From assembly GCA_023379385.1 (NCBI GenBank), contig JAMCUS010000020.1, positions 1 to 38,990 of the forward strand: a DNA stretch of 38,990 nt. Reading direction: 5' to 3'. Made by a program: the position numbers and the translations under genes. This stretch comes from Thermoplasmatota archaeon (GTDB taxonomy: Archaea > Thermoplasmatota > Thermoplasmata > Lutacidiplasmatales > JAMCUS01). Below the pieces are notes generated by a model. The model worked only from the letters and a program-made list of their open reading frames with translations. It made no database searches and was not told where the DNA came from. Positions 21,229 to 27,441 of this stretch are shown piece by piece (within the stretch, counting starts at the first letter, position 1; every line of letters begins with the position of its first letter).

Positions 21229-21830
21229 TCAGATATTTTTTTTATGAATTCCTGTTCGGAATTGCATGATAACCACGGATTCTTTTTCTTTTCTCTACCC
21301 AGTGTGGAAGTAGGGGTAGGACCATAGTTATGTCCTGGATATATTACGGTTTCGTCAGGCATAACCATTATTTTTTTATATAATGATCTATACATCTCTT
21401 CTGGAGATGATTCGGGCAGATCAACTCTGCCAATTTCTTCTACAAAAAGCGTATCCCCTGTAAAAAGATTATTGTTCATAAGAATCACCATTGAATCGTT
21501 ACTGTGCCCTGGCGTTAGTATAAATTTCACTTCTATGCCTATAAGTTTTATCGTGGAATCCATATTTATGGATATATCCTTTCTTATATCTGATAATCCA
21601 TTTGCAATAACCATGCATCCTGACTTTTCTATAAATGGGTTATTAACAATATGATCAAAATGCGAATGGGTATTTATTATATATTTTATTCTTTTAACCC
21701 TTTCATTTCCCAGGATATTCATAATTTTGTCGGTACCCAGAGATGGGTCTATTAAAATAGCGCCTTCAACAGTTTCTACAGCGTATGTATAATTGTTGAG
21801 AGAGCCATTTTCTACGGCATCTATTTTCAT
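21225..21830 (-). CDS. Metallo-beta-lactamase-fold hydrolase, glyoxalase II-like
   Basis: The 201-residue protein has the full metal-binding set: HSHFDH (H55, H57, D59, H60), H109 in TPGHS, D126 in GDTLF and H167 in YPGHNYG. The C-terminal REKKKNPWL matches the glyoxalase II/persulfide dioxygenase-like group, which hydrolyse thioesters or oxidise persulfides. The substrate cannot be told from sequence. Its ATG (21830) overlaps the UspA stop as ATGA, and its own stop overlaps the 45-aa ORF in the same way, so the three genes form one coupled operon. Confidence 0.85.
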   Translation of the reverse strand: MKIDAVENGSLNNYTYAVETVEGAILIDPSLGTDKIMNILGNERVKRIKYIINTHSHFDHIVNNPFIEKSGCMVIANGLSDIRKDISINMDSTIKLIGIEVKFILTPGHSNDSMVILMNNNLFTGDTLFVEEIGRVDLPESSPEEMYRSLYKKIMVMPDETVIYPGHNYGPTPTSTLGREKKKNPWLSCNSEQEFIKKISE

Positions 21831-22264
21831 TTTTTTACTATCAAAACATCAATTTTGGAATGATGAACAACCCCGTCAGAGATAGATCCCAGAAAGAGCC
21901 TTTCTATGCCAGATAATCCTCTGGAACCAATTATTATAAGGTCTGCTTTTATCTGTTCTGAATATTCAACTATTTTATCCACTGGATGCCCTTCTACAAT
22001 ATAACTGTTCAACATAATATTTTGATTGCCTGCTTCCTCTTTCAATTTCTGAATACTTTTTTTATACTCATTTTCAAGTCCGTTTGTAAATGATTCAAGT
22101 CCGGCTATCGGTATGTCTGGAGTATATGCAGTGTATATAATCGAGGGCACAACTGCAATTACAAACAGTTCTGTTTTTAGGGATGCAGCCATGTTCAATG
22201 CTACTTTGAAAGCTTTTAGGGCACACTCAGAACCGTCAAATCCAATCAATATTTTTTTATACAT
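21827..22264 (-). CDS. Universal stress protein (UspA family, ATP-binding type)
   Basis: The 145-residue protein starts MYKKILIGFDGSECALKAF and ends with the nucleotide-binding motif GSRGLSGIERLFLGS near 112-126, then DVLIVKK. This GxxGx9GS pattern marks the ATP-binding subgroup of UspA proteins, which respond to stress or energy state. ATG 22264 is chosen because it gives the family start and follows a GGTGAT motif; the frame is open 12 codons further up. The gene lies 15 bases downstream of tRNA-Asp on the same strand and may be read from the same promoter. Confidence 0.9.
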   Translation of the reverse strand: MYKKILIGFDGSECALKAFKVALNMAASLKTELFVIAVVPSIIYTAYTPDIPIAGLESFTNGLENEYKKSIQKLKEEAGNQNIMLNSYIVEGHPVDKIVEYSEQIKADLIIIGSRGLSGIERLFLGSISDGVVHHSKIDVLIVKK

Positions 22265-22279
22265 CACATCACCAGAGAA

Positions 22280-22380
22280 CGCCCTGGTCGGGATTTTCAA
22301 ATATCTTTTTGAACCCGAGTCCCAGGCTTTCTACGTTAAACTCGACAGGCCTAGATGATAGACCGCTACACTACCAGGGC
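22280..22380 (-). tRNA. tRNA-Asp (GTC) with two introns
   Basis: The acceptor stem GCCCTGG/CCAGGGC is perfect, with discriminator G and no encoded CCA. The anticodon stem TAGGC/GCCTG encloses the loop start CTGTCG, so the anticodon is GTC. A 14-base insert (22329-22342) lies between positions 37 and 38, the canonical archaeal intron site. The T-stem TCGGG/CCCGA encloses 21 bases instead of 7. Removing 14 of them (about 22295-22308) restores the T-loop TTCAAAT. TTCAAA pairs with TTTGAA inside the insert. The intron edges are inferred from mature tRNA structure. Confidence 0.85.
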
Positions 22381-22396
22381 ATTCATATACCTGATA

Positions 22397-22412
22397 GAGG
22401 ATTATATATAAT
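22397..22412 (-). promoter_or_regulatory. TATA box of tRNA-Asp
   Basis: TTATATATAATATT lies about 17-32 bases before the tRNA 5' end on the minus strand, the normal distance for an archaeal TATA element. Confidence 0.5.
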
Positions 22413-22520
22413 ATTTTTTCTATAAGTAATCTCTTTGATAAAGGCATTATGAGATGTTGCCTATAACTATAACAAAAAAGAGATACATCGTTATTAAGTG
22501 TTAAGTTGTGTATGGGAAGC

Positions 22521-22556
22521 TGTAAAACCTCTGGCTTTAGCTGAGGAGAGGATGTC
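22521..22556 (+). ncRNA. Solo IS200/IS605 right-end (omega-RNA-like) hairpin relic, copy 2
   Basis: CCTC (22528-22531) pairs with GAGG (22543-22546) around TGGCTTTAGCT, the typical IS605-group right-end hairpin. It is similar to the segment at 4547-4590. No tnpB remains beside it. It lies between two divergent tRNA genes. The remaining bases from 22381 to 22651 hold only tRNA promoters. Confidence 0.35.
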
Positions 22557-22611
22557 TCTAATCAATAATAAATGTGCAACACAAAATGCATCAATATTGT
22601 TATCCAATTCA

Positions 22612-22626
22612 AAAATTTATTTATAG
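22612..22626 (+). promoter_or_regulatory. TATA box of tRNA-Asn
   Basis: AATTTATTTATAG lies about 26-40 bases before the tRNA 5' end at 22652, as expected for an archaeal TATA element. Confidence 0.4.
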
Positions 22627-22651
22627 ATGTTATACTTATTCCTCTAATGGT

Positions 22652-22767
22652 GCCGTCGTAGCTCAGTTGGTAGAGCGCTCGGCTGTTATTGTATATAAAT
22701 GCTTATATACCCCAGACACCGAATGGTCAGCGGTTCAAGAGTATTTCTGAAAATCCGCTCGACGGCG
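22652..22767 (+). tRNA. tRNA-Asn (GTT) with two introns
   Basis: The acceptor stem GCCGTCG/CGACGGC is perfect, with discriminator G and no encoded CCA. The D-arm is GCTC...GAGC. The anticodon loop is CTGTTA plus A38, giving GTT. A 29-base intron (22689-22717) at 37/38 contains its own perfect stem GTATATAA/TTATATAC. The T-stem AGCGG/CCGCT encloses 21 bases. Removing 14 (about 22739-22752) restores TTCAAAT. This T-loop insert has the same length and position as in tRNA-Asp. Pair 27-43 (C-A) is mismatched, which is the only flaw. Confidence 0.85.
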
Positions 22768-22774
22768 CATGAAA

Positions 22775-22849
22775 GGGCCCGTAGCTTAGTCCGGTTGGAG
22801 CGATTGGCTCATAACCAATTGGTCGTCGGTTCAAATCCGACTGGGCCCA
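22775..22849 (+). tRNA. tRNA with CAT anticodon (elongator Met or Ile2)
   Basis: Standard intronless tRNA: acceptor GGGCCCG/TGGGCCC (one G-T pair), anticodon arm ATTGG-CTCATAA-CCAAT, T-arm GTCGG-TTCAAAT-CCGAC, discriminator A, no CCA. The anticodon stem lacks the G-C pairs of an initiator tRNA. The sequence alone does not decide between elongator Met and Ile2, whose C34 is modified in archaea. It lies seven bases after tRNA-Asn and marks the left edge of the accessory island. Confidence 0.9.
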
Positions 22850-23253: not shown

Positions 23254-24105
23254 TTATCGTTGTGCTTTATGTAGTCTTGCTACATCATCTTTTGTTATTA
23301 TCCCTTTATCTATAAGCATTTCAACTGTATCCCATGCATACCTACGGATATCCTCATTATCAGAATTTAGAAGTTCTATAAATTTATTTTTTAAATCCTT
23401 TACATCATCTTTTGTTATTATCCCTTTATCTATAAGCGTATCAACTCTATACCATGCATACCTACGGATATCCTCATTATCAGAATTTAGAAGTTCTATA
23501 AATTTATTTTTTAAATCCTTTACATCATCTTTTGTTATTATCCCTTTATCTATAAGCTTTTCAACTGTATCCCATGCATGACTACGAACATATTCTTCAT
23601 TAGAATGTAGAAGGCCTATTAATTTATCTTTTACATCCTTTACATCATCTTTTGTTATTATTCCTTTATCTATAAGCTTTTCAACTGTATCCCATGCATG
23701 ACTACGAACATATTCTTCATTAGAATGTAGAAGGCCTATTAATTTATCTTTTAAATCCTTTACATCATCTTTTGTTATTATTCCTTTATCTATAAGCGTA
23801 TCAACTCTATCCCATGCATCACTACGGATATCCTCATTATCAGAACTTATACCAGAACTTATACCAGAACGCATACCAGAAGAACGCATACCATAAGAAC
23901 GCATACCAGAACGCCAAGATCTAACTGCAAGCTCACGTATACCATAATTATCGGAACTTAGAAGTTTTATGAACTTAGTAGAATCCTCTTTTGTTATTAT
24001 TCCTTTATCTATAAGCATTACAACCATATTCCATGTATCACTACGAACACTGTCATCATCAGAACTTAGCTTTTTTATTAATTCATCCTTATTCATTCTA
24101 TCCAT
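23254..24105 (-). CDS. HEAT-repeat solenoid protein C (about 6 repeats)
   Basis: The 283-residue protein consists of about six HEAT-like repeats with consensus FIELLxSDNExIRxxAW and LIDKGIITKDD, 40 residues per full unit. Repeat 2 holds a Ser/Gly/Met/Arg micro-repeat insert (SGMRS/SGIS units) nine residues longer than in solenoid B. The first ~95 residues are nearly identical to solenoid B. HEAT solenoids bind proteins or nucleic acids; the ligand is unknown. ATG 24105 follows GGGGAGG. The second Met (24096) would overlap the upstream stop as ATGA. The gene ends VARLHKAQR. Confidence 0.8.
   Translation of the reverse strand: MDRMNKDELIKKLSSDDDSVRSDTWNMVVMLIDKGIITKEDSTKFIKLLSSDNYGIRELAVRSWRSGMRSYGMRSSGMRSGISSGISSDNEDIRSDAWDRVDTLIDKGIITKDDVKDLKDKLIGLLHSNEEYVRSHAWDTVEKLIDKGIITKDDVKDVKDKLIGLLHSNEEYVRSHAWDTVEKLIDKGIITKDDVKDLKNKFIELLNSDNEDIRRYAWYRVDTLIDKGIITKDDVKDLKNKFIELLNSDNEDIRRYAWDTVEMLIDKGIITKDDVARLHKAQR
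23281..23820. repeat. Tandem 120-bp repeat array (solenoid gene C)
   Basis: About four and a half copies of the 120-base unit that encodes the 40-residue HEAT repeat are seen. Adjacent copies such as 23521-23640 and 23641-23760 differ at only two or three positions. Confidence 0.85.
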
Positions 24106-24477
24106 TCAATCCTCCCCTTTGTTTTATTATACATCTTTATTGTCTTACCCTCTTTAATCTTTTTCTTTTGATACCACAATGTAGACTTGTTTATCTTCAA
24201 GGCTTTCCTTTTTTCAGCATCAATGGACATAATCTTGTTCTTGATATCAATTGTATCATTCCTTGATATTTCTATATCAGGTATTTTGAATTCTAATGTT
24301 TTTACCTTACCTGAGATGTATCTGTTCAATTCCCTGATATTCTCATATTCAAGGTATGAATTGTTATCAATTCCCAATACGGATACTTCGTCAAGGTTGT
24401 TTGATTCCTTTCCTATATATCTTATCCTATCTACGATAATATGTTTCCTCTGGGCTATGCTATCTATGTAGTCAAAT
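23761..24477. repeat. Segmental duplication, copy 1 (partner 27124-27813)
   Basis: This block holds the 5' part of a solenoid gene, the whole 94-aa HTH ORF and its upstream region. It is almost base-identical to 27124-27813 at a constant offset of 3336 bases, apart from a 27-base length difference in the micro-repeat near 23850-23905. The identity ends abruptly at 24477/27813. Confidence 0.85.
24093..24377 (-). CDS. Cas1 C-terminal helix-turn-helix copy 2 (94 aa)
   Basis: The 94 residues match the last ~80 residues of the Cas1 protein at 30126-31136, including RYISGKxKTLEFKIPDIE and the HTH-like KINKSTLWYQKKKIKEGK. The frame starts with TTG and lacks an ATG. It is open about 40 codons further upstream without a usual start codon. 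It may be a stand-alone DNA-binding protein translated by coupling, or a duplicated gene fragment. Its end overlaps the start of solenoid C. It is virtually identical to copy 1 at 27429-27713. Confidence 0.5.
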   Translation of the reverse strand: MGIDNNSYLEYENIRELNRYISGKVKTLEFKIPDIEISRNDTIDIKNKIMSIDAEKRKALKINKSTLWYQKKKIKEGKTIKMYNKTKGRIEWIE

Positions 24478-27441
24478 TTGTGGTCGTTGTGCTTTATGTA
24501 GTCTTGCTACATCATCTTTTGTTATTATCCCTTTATCTGCAAGCGTATCAACTCTATCCCATGCATGACTACGGATATCCTCATTATCAGAACTTAGAAG
24601 TTCTATAAATTTATTTTTTAAATCCTTTACATCTTCTTTTGTTATTATCCCTTTATCTGCAAGCGTATCAACTCTATACCATGCATACATACGGATATCC
24701 TCATTATCAGAACTTAGAAGTTCTATAAATTTATTTTTTAAATCCTTTACATCTTCTTTTGTTATTATCCCTTTATCTATAAGCTTTTTAACTTTATCCC
24801 ATGCATACCTACGGATATCCTCATTATCAGAACTTAGAAGTTCTATAAATTTATCTTTTAAATCCTTTACAACCTCTTTTGTTATTATCCCTTTATCTAT
24901 AAGCGTATCAACTTCATCCAATGCATTCCCACGGGCATACTCATCATAAGAACTTAGAAGTTCTATAAATTTATCTTTTAAATCCTTTACAACCTCTTTT
25001 GTTATTATCCCTTTATCTATAAGCGTATCAACTCTATACCATGCATCCTCACGAATATACTCATTATCAAAACTTAGAAGTTCTATAAATTCATCTTTTA
25101 AATCCTTTACAACCTCTTTTGTTATTATCCCTTTATCTATAAGCGTATCAACTCTATTCCATGCATACCTACGGATATCTTCATTATCAGAACTTAGAAG
25201 TTCTATAAATTCATCTTTTAAATCCTTTACAACCTCTTTTGTTATTATCCCTTTATCTATAAGCGTATCAACTCTATTCCATGCCTTAATACGGATATAC
25301 TCATTATCAGAACTTAGAAGTTCTATAAATTCATCTTTTAAATCCTTTACAACCTCTTTTGTTATTATCCCTTTATCTATAAGCGTATCAACTTTATACC
25401 ATGCATCACTACGAATATCTTTATTATCAGAACGTAGAAGTTCTATGAATTTACCTTTTACATCCTTTAAATCATCTTTTGTTATTATCCCTTTATCTAT
25501 AAGCGTATCAACTTTATACCATGCCTTAATACGGATATACTCATTATCAGAACTTAGAAATTCTATAAATTCATCTTTTAAATCCTTTACAACCTCTTTT
25601 GTTATTATCCCTTTATCTATAAGCGTATCAACTTTATACCATGCATCCTCACGAATATCTTTATTATCAGAACGTAGAAGTTCTATGAATTTACCTTTTA
25701 CATCCTTTAAATCATCTTTTGTTATTATTCCTTTGTCTATAAGCGTATCAACTTTATACCATGCCTTAATACGGATATACTCATTATCAGAACTTAGAAA
25801 TTCTATGAATTTACCTTTTAAATCCTTTACAACCTCTTTTGTTATTATCCCTTTATCTATAAGCATATCAACTTTATACCATGCATCACTACGAATATCT
25901 TTATTATCAGAACTTAGACGTTCTATGAATTTACCTTTTACATCCTTTAAATCGTCTTTTGTTATTATCCCTTTATCTATAAGCATGTCAACTTTATACC
26001 ATGCATGACTCCAGTCATACTCATTATAAGAACGTAGAAGTTCTATGAATTTACCTTTTACATCCTTTAAATCATCTTTTGTTATTATCCCTTTATCTAT
26101 AAGCATTCCAACTTTATACCATGCATCCTCACGAATATCTTTATTATCAGAACGTAGAAGTTCTATGAATTTACCTTTTACATCCTTTAAATCATCTTTT
26201 GTTATTATTCCTTTGTCTATAAGCGTATCAACTTTATACCATGCATCACTACGAATATCTTCATAATCAGAACGTAGAAATTCTATTAATTTACCTTTTA
26301 CATCCTTTAAATCATCTTTTGTTATTATCCCATCATCTATAAGCATTCTAATATTATACCATGCATCCCTACGAATATCTTCATAATCAGAACGTAGAAA
26401 TTCTATTAATTTACCTTTTACATCCTTTAAATCATCTTTTGTTATTATCCCATCATCTATAAGCATTCTAATATTATACCATGCATCACTACGAATATCT
26501 TCATTATCAGAACTTAGAAGTTCTATTAATTTACCTTTTACATCCTTTAAATCCTCTTTTGTTATTATCCCTTTATCTATAAGCATGTCAACTTTATCCC
26601 ATGCATGACTACGAATATCTTTATTATCAGAACTTAGAAGTTCTATAAATTTATCTTTTAAATCCTTTACATCATCTTTTGTTATTATCCCATCATCTAT
26701 AAGCATTCCAACTCTGCCCCATGCATATTTACGAACATCATAATAATCAGAACGTAGAAATTCTATTAATTTACCTTTTACATCCTTTAAATCATCTTTT
26801 GTTATTATCCCATCATCTATAAGCATTCTAATATAATACCATGCAACCCTACGAATATCTTCATTATCAGAACTTAGAAGTTCTATTAATTTAGTAGAAT
26901 CATCTTTTGTTATTATCCCATCATCTATAAGCATTCCAACTCTGTCCCATGCATATTTACGAACATTATAATAATCAGAACGTAGAAATTCTATTAATTT
27001 AGTAGAATCCTCTTTTGTTATTATCCCTTTATCTATAAGCATGTCAACTTTATCCCATGCATGACTACGAATATCTTTATTATCAGAACTTAGAAGTTCT
27101 ATAAATTTATCTTTTAAATCCTTTACATCATCTTTTGTTATTATTCCTTTATCTATAAGCGTATCAACTCTATCCCATGCATCACTACGGATATCCTCAT
27201 TATCAGAACTTATACCAGAACGCATACCAGAAGAACGTATACCAGAACGCCAAGATCTAACTGCAAGCTCACGTATACCATAATTATCGGAACTTAGAAG
27301 TTTTATGAACTCAGTAGAATCCTCTTTTGTTATTATTCCTTTATCTATAAGCATTACAACCATATTCCATGTATCACTACGAACACTGTCATCATCAGAA
27401 CTTAGCTTTTTTATTAATTCATCCTTATTCATTCTATCCAT
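24472..27441 (-). CDS. HEAT-repeat solenoid protein B (about 24 repeats)
   Basis: The 989-residue protein consists of about 24 HEAT-like repeats, mostly exactly 40 residues, with two 36-residue units (STKLIE form) near the N-terminus. Invariant parts are IRxxAW, LIDKGIITK and the KDLKDKFIELL helix. Variation concentrates on the two residues after IR, the two after AW, and the pair before LID. Dimeric units (repeats 14-15 and 16-17) are duplicated, showing growth by unequal crossing-over. No signal peptide, membrane helix or catalytic motif is present. ATG 27441 follows GGGGAGG; Met 4 (27432) would give an ATGA overlap with the HTH ORF upstream. The ligand is unknown. Confidence 0.85.
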   Translation of the reverse strand: MDRMNKDELIKKLSSDDDSVRSDTWNMVVMLIDKGIITKEDSTEFIKLLSSDNYGIRELAVRSWRSGIRSSGMRSGISSDNEDIRSDAWDRVDTLIDKGIITKDDVKDLKDKFIELLSSDNKDIRSHAWDKVDMLIDKGIITKEDSTKLIEFLRSDYYNVRKYAWDRVGMLIDDGIITKDDSTKLIELLSSDNEDIRRVAWYYIRMLIDDGIITKDDLKDVKGKLIEFLRSDYYDVRKYAWGRVGMLIDDGIITKDDVKDLKDKFIELLSSDNKDIRSHAWDKVDMLIDKGIITKEDLKDVKGKLIELLSSDNEDIRSDAWYNIRMLIDDGIITKDDLKDVKGKLIEFLRSDYEDIRRDAWYNIRMLIDDGIITKDDLKDVKGKLIEFLRSDYEDIRSDAWYKVDTLIDKGIITKDDLKDVKGKFIELLRSDNKDIREDAWYKVGMLIDKGIITKDDLKDVKGKFIELLRSYNEYDWSHAWYKVDMLIDKGIITKDDLKDVKGKFIERLSSDNKDIRSDAWYKVDMLIDKGIITKEVVKDLKGKFIEFLSSDNEYIRIKAWYKVDTLIDKGIITKDDLKDVKGKFIELLRSDNKDIREDAWYKVDTLIDKGIITKEVVKDLKDEFIEFLSSDNEYIRIKAWYKVDTLIDKGIITKDDLKDVKGKFIELLRSDNKDIRSDAWYKVDTLIDKGIITKEVVKDLKDEFIELLSSDNEYIRIKAWNRVDTLIDKGIITKEVVKDLKDEFIELLSSDNEDIRRYAWNRVDTLIDKGIITKEVVKDLKDEFIELLSFDNEYIREDAWYRVDTLIDKGIITKEVVKDLKDKFIELLSSYDEYARGNALDEVDTLIDKGIITKEVVKDLKDKFIELLSSDNEDIRRYAWDKVKKLIDKGIITKEDVKDLKNKFIELLSSDNEDIRMYAWYRVDTLADKGIITKEDVKDLKNKFIELLSSDNEDIRSHAWDRVDTLADKGIITKDDVARLHKAQRPQI
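24500..27170. repeat. Tandem 120-bp repeat array (solenoid gene B)
   Basis: The period is exactly 120 bases from about 24541 to 26880, so phrases such as TTTTGTTATTATCCC recur at fixed spacing more than 20 times. Two units are shortened to 108 bases near 26881-27000. Neighbouring units are often more than 90% alike. Confidence 0.9.

Follow-up and report, generated by a model that had tools for sequence, protein, structure and literature searches.

Introns in the T-loop of archaeal tRNA genes are already known (PMC6379350), and reviews list introns at several sites per tRNA set for Thermoproteales, some other crenarchaea, Korarchaeum, Nanoarchaeum, ARMAN and a few methanogens (PMC4033280, PMC3218864). 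Counted by tRNAscan-SE 2.0, Thermoproteales carry 0.84 introns per tRNA gene and archaea overall 0.21 (PMC8450103). Reviews tie such multi-site introns to splicing endonucleases (EndA) of broad specificity, either the (alpha beta)2 type with the CSL or the epsilon2 type with the ASL, whereas euryarchaea with the alpha'2 type are said to have few, canonical introns; for euryarchaea with EndA of the alpha4/alpha2 type, only canonical, single introns are described (PMC4090602). The alpha'2 enzymes of A. fulgidus and T. acidophilum have been described as narrow, and that of A. fulgidus is able to remove bulge-helix-loop (BHL) introns at 37/38 from full-length pre-tRNA (PMC6379350). Grafting the ASL onto the A. 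fulgidus enzyme broadened its specificity (PMC12397907).

The window, that is the whole 38,990-nt stretch of DNA analysed here, is contig 20 of an assembly of 1.63 Mb in 45 contigs (93.8% complete). Two of its tRNA genes are each interrupted twice. The tRNA-Asp(GTC) gene (22280..22380, minus strand) contains a 14-nt intron at 37/38 (22329..22342, minus; helix CUGU/GUAG, bulges CG·A and AA·A, dots marking the cuts) and a 14-nt T-loop intron, AAGATATTTGAAAA, at 59/60 (22294..22307, minus; helix UUCA/UGAA, bulges AA·A and AA·U). The tRNA-Asn(GTT) gene (22652..22767, plus strand) contains a 29-nt intron at 37/38 (22689..22717, plus) in which three of the four central pairs form, and again a 14-nt T-loop intron, AGTATTTCTGAAAA, at 59/60 (22740..22753, plus; helix UUCA/UGAA, bulges AG·A and AA·U). 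In both genes the acceptor stem is fully paired (7/7) and the T-loop measures 21 nt. An earlier note on this DNA had proposed these two pairs of introns, and their coordinates, stems and lengths are all borne out, as is its remark that the two T-loop inserts agree in length and position and pair with the loop. It had also given TTCAAAT as the mature T-loop of both genes; this holds for tRNA-Asp, while in tRNA-Asn the cut that fits both sides of the bulge-helix-bulge leaves TTCAAGT. On sequence alone the T-loop junction of tRNA-Asp is ambiguous by 1-3 nt, with runs of A around the cut, but the ambiguity is settled because the bulge rule described below fixes the cut. The exons stand in normal order, within 101 nt for tRNA-Asp and 116 nt for tRNA-Asn, and the genes are neither permuted nor split.

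An intronless tRNA gene with the anticodon CAT (22775..22849, plus) serves as an internal comparison, and its T-loop is normal, as the earlier note had observed. It is probably tRNA-Ile(CAU) and not a Met tRNA, because its body resembles that of tRNA-Ile(GAT) of the same genome. Contig 39 opens with this gene (positions 1-74) and the 3' flank matches too, either as an assembly overlap or as a second copy. Concerning the neighbouring genes, the universal stress protein ORF listed at 21827-22300 (minus) begins at a TTG inside tRNA-Asp, and its true start is likely an ATG at about 22264. Two genes for HEAT/ARM-type repeat proteins lie in tandem on the minus strand (23254-24105, 283 aa, and 24472-27441, 989 aa), which begin almost identically and are highly repetitive thereafter.

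Applied to the genes as they stand, ARAGORN found neither tRNA-Asp nor tRNA-Asn. With both introns removed in silico it calls tRNA-Asp(gtc) and tRNA-Asn(gtt), and with the T-loop insert left in it never recovers either. Rfam reports 26 tRNA genes in the genome at its cut-off, with tRNA-Asn among them and tRNA-Asp missed. We widened the census by a pattern for the T-loop insert and by two covariance models built from tRNAs of the genome itself, and recovered 42 distinct tRNA genes. A full archaeal set is expected to comprise 46; in this 94%-complete genome only Gln(TTG), His, Thr(GGT) and Val(TAC) were not recovered. General tRNA finders therefore overlook genes of this kind, ARAGORN finding none of the two and Rfam 26 against 42. 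That standard finders miss both genes might suggest that tRNA-Asp and tRNA-Asn are decaying pseudogenes. The probability of this is negligible, and we reject it, as the 42 genes include no further tRNA gene for Asn or Asp; intronless copies elsewhere in the genome were specifically sought, and one Asn and one Asp gene were recovered. Moreover, the stems are intact and the inserts follow a strict rule common to 12 other genes, each of them the sole gene found with its anticodon.

The T-loop is interrupted in 14 of the 42 genes, always at 59/60, and the trait is not peculiar to the two tRNAs on which the earlier note had remarked. Besides Asp and Asn the hosts are Arg TCG, Arg TCT, Arg CCG, Gly CCC, Gly TCC, Glu CTC, Gln CTG, Lys TTT, Leu TAG, Leu TAA, Ser GCT and Ser TGA; isoacceptors free of a T-loop insert, for example Glu TTC, Gly GCC and Leu CAG, occur in the same genome. 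Eight genes have inserts in the D-loop (Thr TGT, Thr CGT, Arg CCT, Arg GCG, Arg TCT, Arg CCG, Lys TTT and Leu TAA) and 15 have introns in the anticodon loop, with all three sites occupied in Arg CCG and Leu TAA. The total is 37 introns in 42 genes or 0.88 per gene, where this ratio and the D-loop and anticodon-loop counts are our own tally. The D-loop inserts of Thr TGT, Thr CGT and Lys TTT all finish in AAA ahead of the 3' D-stem; a cut before A21 by the bulge rule would fit at least both Thr genes, and the remaining D-loop inserts fit less simply. The T-loop introns of Arg TCT and Arg TCG differ at one of 13 nt, a near-identity that hints at copying between tRNA genes.

The T-arm consists of a 5-bp stem closing a 7-nt loop, and every T-loop insert has the same layout of six loop bases, cut, intron, cut and one loop base. 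Bases 54-57 (UUCR) pair with four intron bases located three before position 60. The 5' bulge is formed by bases 58-59 and the first intron base, the 3' bulge by the last two intron bases and base 60, and each 3-nt bulge is cut two-plus-one, between 59 and the intron on one side and between the intron and 60 on the other. In the 14 genes 54 of 56 pairs of this central helix form, a value reached in 0 of 20000 shuffles of the inserts; the two inserts with three of four pairs are those of Gln CTG and Ser TGA. The T-loop inserts are therefore not due to chance, since 14 genes share both the site and the pairing rule. Excision by the rule yields a T-loop that fits TTCRANT in all 14 cases, either TTCAAAT, TTCGAAT or, in Asn, TTCAAGT. 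When the rule was applied at positions 32-38 to 13 of the genome's 37/38 introns, 48 of 52 pairs formed (0 of 20000 shuffles); here bases 32-35 pair, and 36,37 and 38 flank the cuts. As the same pairing rule holds at 59/60 and at 37/38, the T-arm is shaped like a second anticodon arm. The T-loop introns of this genome are 13-15 nt long, with the single exception of Lys TTT (26 nt), and their inner helix is a run of 0-2 pairs. They have the relaxed BHL form, as opposed to the strict hBHBh' form with a helix beyond each bulge.

Other genomes of the order also carry T-loop introns at 59/60. Most of these measure 28-35 nt, and they interrupt the tRNAs for Asn, Arg TCT, Arg CCG, Glu CTC, Ala GGC and Ala CGC. 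Confinement of the trait to this genome, as a search with the TGAAAATC 3'-end pattern had indicated, proved to be an artefact of that narrow pattern; the covariance models found the relatives. We aligned 12 longer T-loop introns, 11 from relatives and the Lys TTT intron of this genome, and 14 of the 18 pairs of the whole structure change on both sides while 90% of the cells are paired (0 of 500 shuffles reach this). The inner helix of nine pairs covaries strongly, and in controls with the partner slid by 1-3 columns pairing fell to 29-58%.

A model of the T-arm with intron, which undercounts the short form, was then run on 300 genomes of the class Thermoplasmata. It matches every sampled genome of the order, with 4-12 matches in family f2, 2 in f3 and 6 in the present genome; other families of the class mostly have 0-3, and f25 up to 6. 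The matches that were followed up are genuine tRNAs, for the most part Arg(TCT), Arg(CCG) and Lys(TTT), and the Lys(TTT) of relatives often carries a D-loop insert too. The trait is present in UBA184, a member of Lutacidiplasmatales (PMC9287336), in Methanomassiliicoccales RumEn M1 and in Methanomassiliicoccus MXMAG1. UBA184 agrees in coordinates and scores with genome G046 of the order studied here, which we accordingly take to be Lutacidiplasmatales. The earlier note had placed tRNA introns at a non-canonical site in a likely euryarchaeon, and this is borne out, the present genome belonging to the class Thermoplasmata. Altogether, 77 distinct T-loop introns were collected from other genomes; all have at least three of four central pairs, most possess the inner helix, and their lengths range from 21 to 41 nt.

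This range bears on whether the insert might persist in the mature tRNA, where it would lengthen the T-arm into a longer hairpin, with the T-stem stacked on UUCA/UGAA and AAU as a bulge. The insert does fold as a hairpin continuous with the T-stem, and its length is nearly uniform in this genome. However, a retained insert would wreck the elbow between T-loop and D-loop in 14 tRNAs. In relatives the inserts at this position measure 21-41 nt, some isoacceptors of this genome do without any insert, and excision of the predicted stretch gives a consensus T-loop every time. We consider retention very unlikely. The T-loop inserts are, with high probability, short archaeal introns of the kind spliced by EndA, located at 59/60 in a T-arm that would act as a second anticodon arm, and shrunk from the longer bulge-helix-bulge forms of the class.

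The genome contains one EndA gene (L027:1474-2565, minus strand, outside the window) encoding 364 aa, and matches to PF01974 are limited to the two repeats of this single ORF. Its domains, two PF02778 and two PF01974, follow the order N-C-N-C; by sequence the enzyme has the alpha'2 architecture of two fused N-C repeats. The catalytic motifs KTGFKYG, H309 and K340 (VKK) lie in the second repeat and are invariant in the EndA alignment. The closest solved chains are 5x89 and the EndA of ARMAN-2, M. jannaschii and A. fulgidus. In the alignment with A. fulgidus no ASL- or CSL-like insertion is visible in the catalytic repeat. An epsilon2 enzyme as in ARMAN, a three-unit alphaN-alpha-betaC chain with ASL, is not supported, given the two-repeat domain order and, relative to A. 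fulgidus, the lack of an insertion before the helix of the catalytic repeat; nor is a crenarchaeal (alpha beta)2 enzyme with CSL, no separate alpha and beta genes having been found in the genome. The endonuclease of broad specificity that the earlier note took to be implied by the introns does not follow as one of a known type, because the EndA is of the alpha'2 type that is called narrow and shows no such insertion.

Against splicing by EndA speaks the enzyme type, which is reported to be narrow, with the inserts being BHL, a form that narrow enzymes handle poorly; the ambiguous junction of tRNA-Asp and the incomplete central helices of Gln CTG and Ser TGA also count against it. Removal of the introns might be carried out by, or depend on, more than this EndA, such as an accessory protein, a modification or an enzyme whose gene the assembly lacks. 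The alpha'2 type, called narrow and here without a visible ASL or CSL insertion (PMC6379350, PMC12397907), would be in line with this, as would a genome that is 94% complete. On the other hand, each examined relative with T-loop introns and a Pfam match has a single EndA gene, the geometry is identical to that of the 37/38 introns, and the A. fulgidus enzyme removes BHL introns at that site from full-length pre-tRNA (PMC6379350). An additional factor seems unlikely. As the T-arm copies the geometry of the anticodon arm, an EndA that accepts this geometry and no other might be enough.

Most EndAs of the class carry a loop, PRGG.P.KTPSKYW, in the N-terminal repeat that A. fulgidus lacks, and it could possibly be an RNA-contact element. 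The loop is missing in the f19 genomes without T-loop introns and also in f15. However, the f15 genome G295 has a T-loop intron but not the loop, and in several genomes with the loop no T-loop intron was found; with the correlation imperfect in both ways, the loop as a cause is only a lead.

Under splicing by EndA, the enzyme would cut both bulges of the T-arm and a ligase would join the exons, restoring TTCRANT. The ancestral forms in the class would be full bulge-helix-bulge introns of 21-41 nt, present in part of the class in a few tRNAs, which would have multiplied in this order and been shortened in this family, although the direction of change is inferred. Loss of the inner helix may have shrunk the T-loop introns to 13-15 nt in the family of this genome, where they would have extended to one tRNA gene in three. 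If this is true, a whole class combining an alpha'2 EndA with T-loop introns (and here 37 introns in 42 genes) would break or refine the rule that connects multi-site introns to broad-specificity enzymes. The series from a full bulge-helix-bulge in most relatives to a minimal BHL here would further offer a natural means to examine what EndA needs for recognition.

In the open-access literature we found nothing relevant on tRNA introns in Thermoplasmatota, Methanomassiliicoccales or Lutacidiplasmatales, subscription papers and GtRNAdb being outside the scope of the search. The 59/60 site is known elsewhere; the lineage, the scale and the pairing with this enzyme were not met in the literature searched, and prior notice is possible. 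Whether Thermoplasmata arrived independently, and by a route not described before, at tRNA introns that are pervasive and occupy several sites is in our judgement evenly balanced. On that proposal an EndA of the alpha'2 type, lacking the known specificity loops, would handle T-arms that resemble anticodon arms, perhaps helped by the PRGG.P.KTPSKYW loop, and the T-loop introns of this family would have contracted to about 13 nt and spread across a third of the tRNA genes.

Among described systems, the closest are the Thermoproteales (Pyrobaculum, Thermofilum), which likewise have several introns per tRNA at non-canonical sites with a bulge-helix-bulge structure and a similar intron load (0.84 per gene, PMC8450103, against 0.88 here). 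They belong to another phylum, however, and use an (alpha beta)2 EndA with CSL where the present genome has an alpha'2 enzyme; furthermore, the T-loop introns described here are confined to 59/60 and vary little in length within this genome. Non-canonical introns of the BHL type are shared with ARMAN-1/2 (Micrarchaeota), once placed with the Euryarchaeota (PMC4033280, PMC12397907), but their EndA is a three-unit epsilon2 enzyme with ASL, in contrast to the N-C-N-C enzyme without visible ASL. The permuted tRNA genes of Thermofilum pendens and Cyanidioschyzon merolae also have an exon junction at 59/60 (PMC3218864), whereas here the exons are in normal order with a 13-26-nt intron between them. 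Finally, the canonical 37/38 introns of euryarchaea have identical loop geometry and cut positions, and the present inserts differ from them in being placed in the T-arm.
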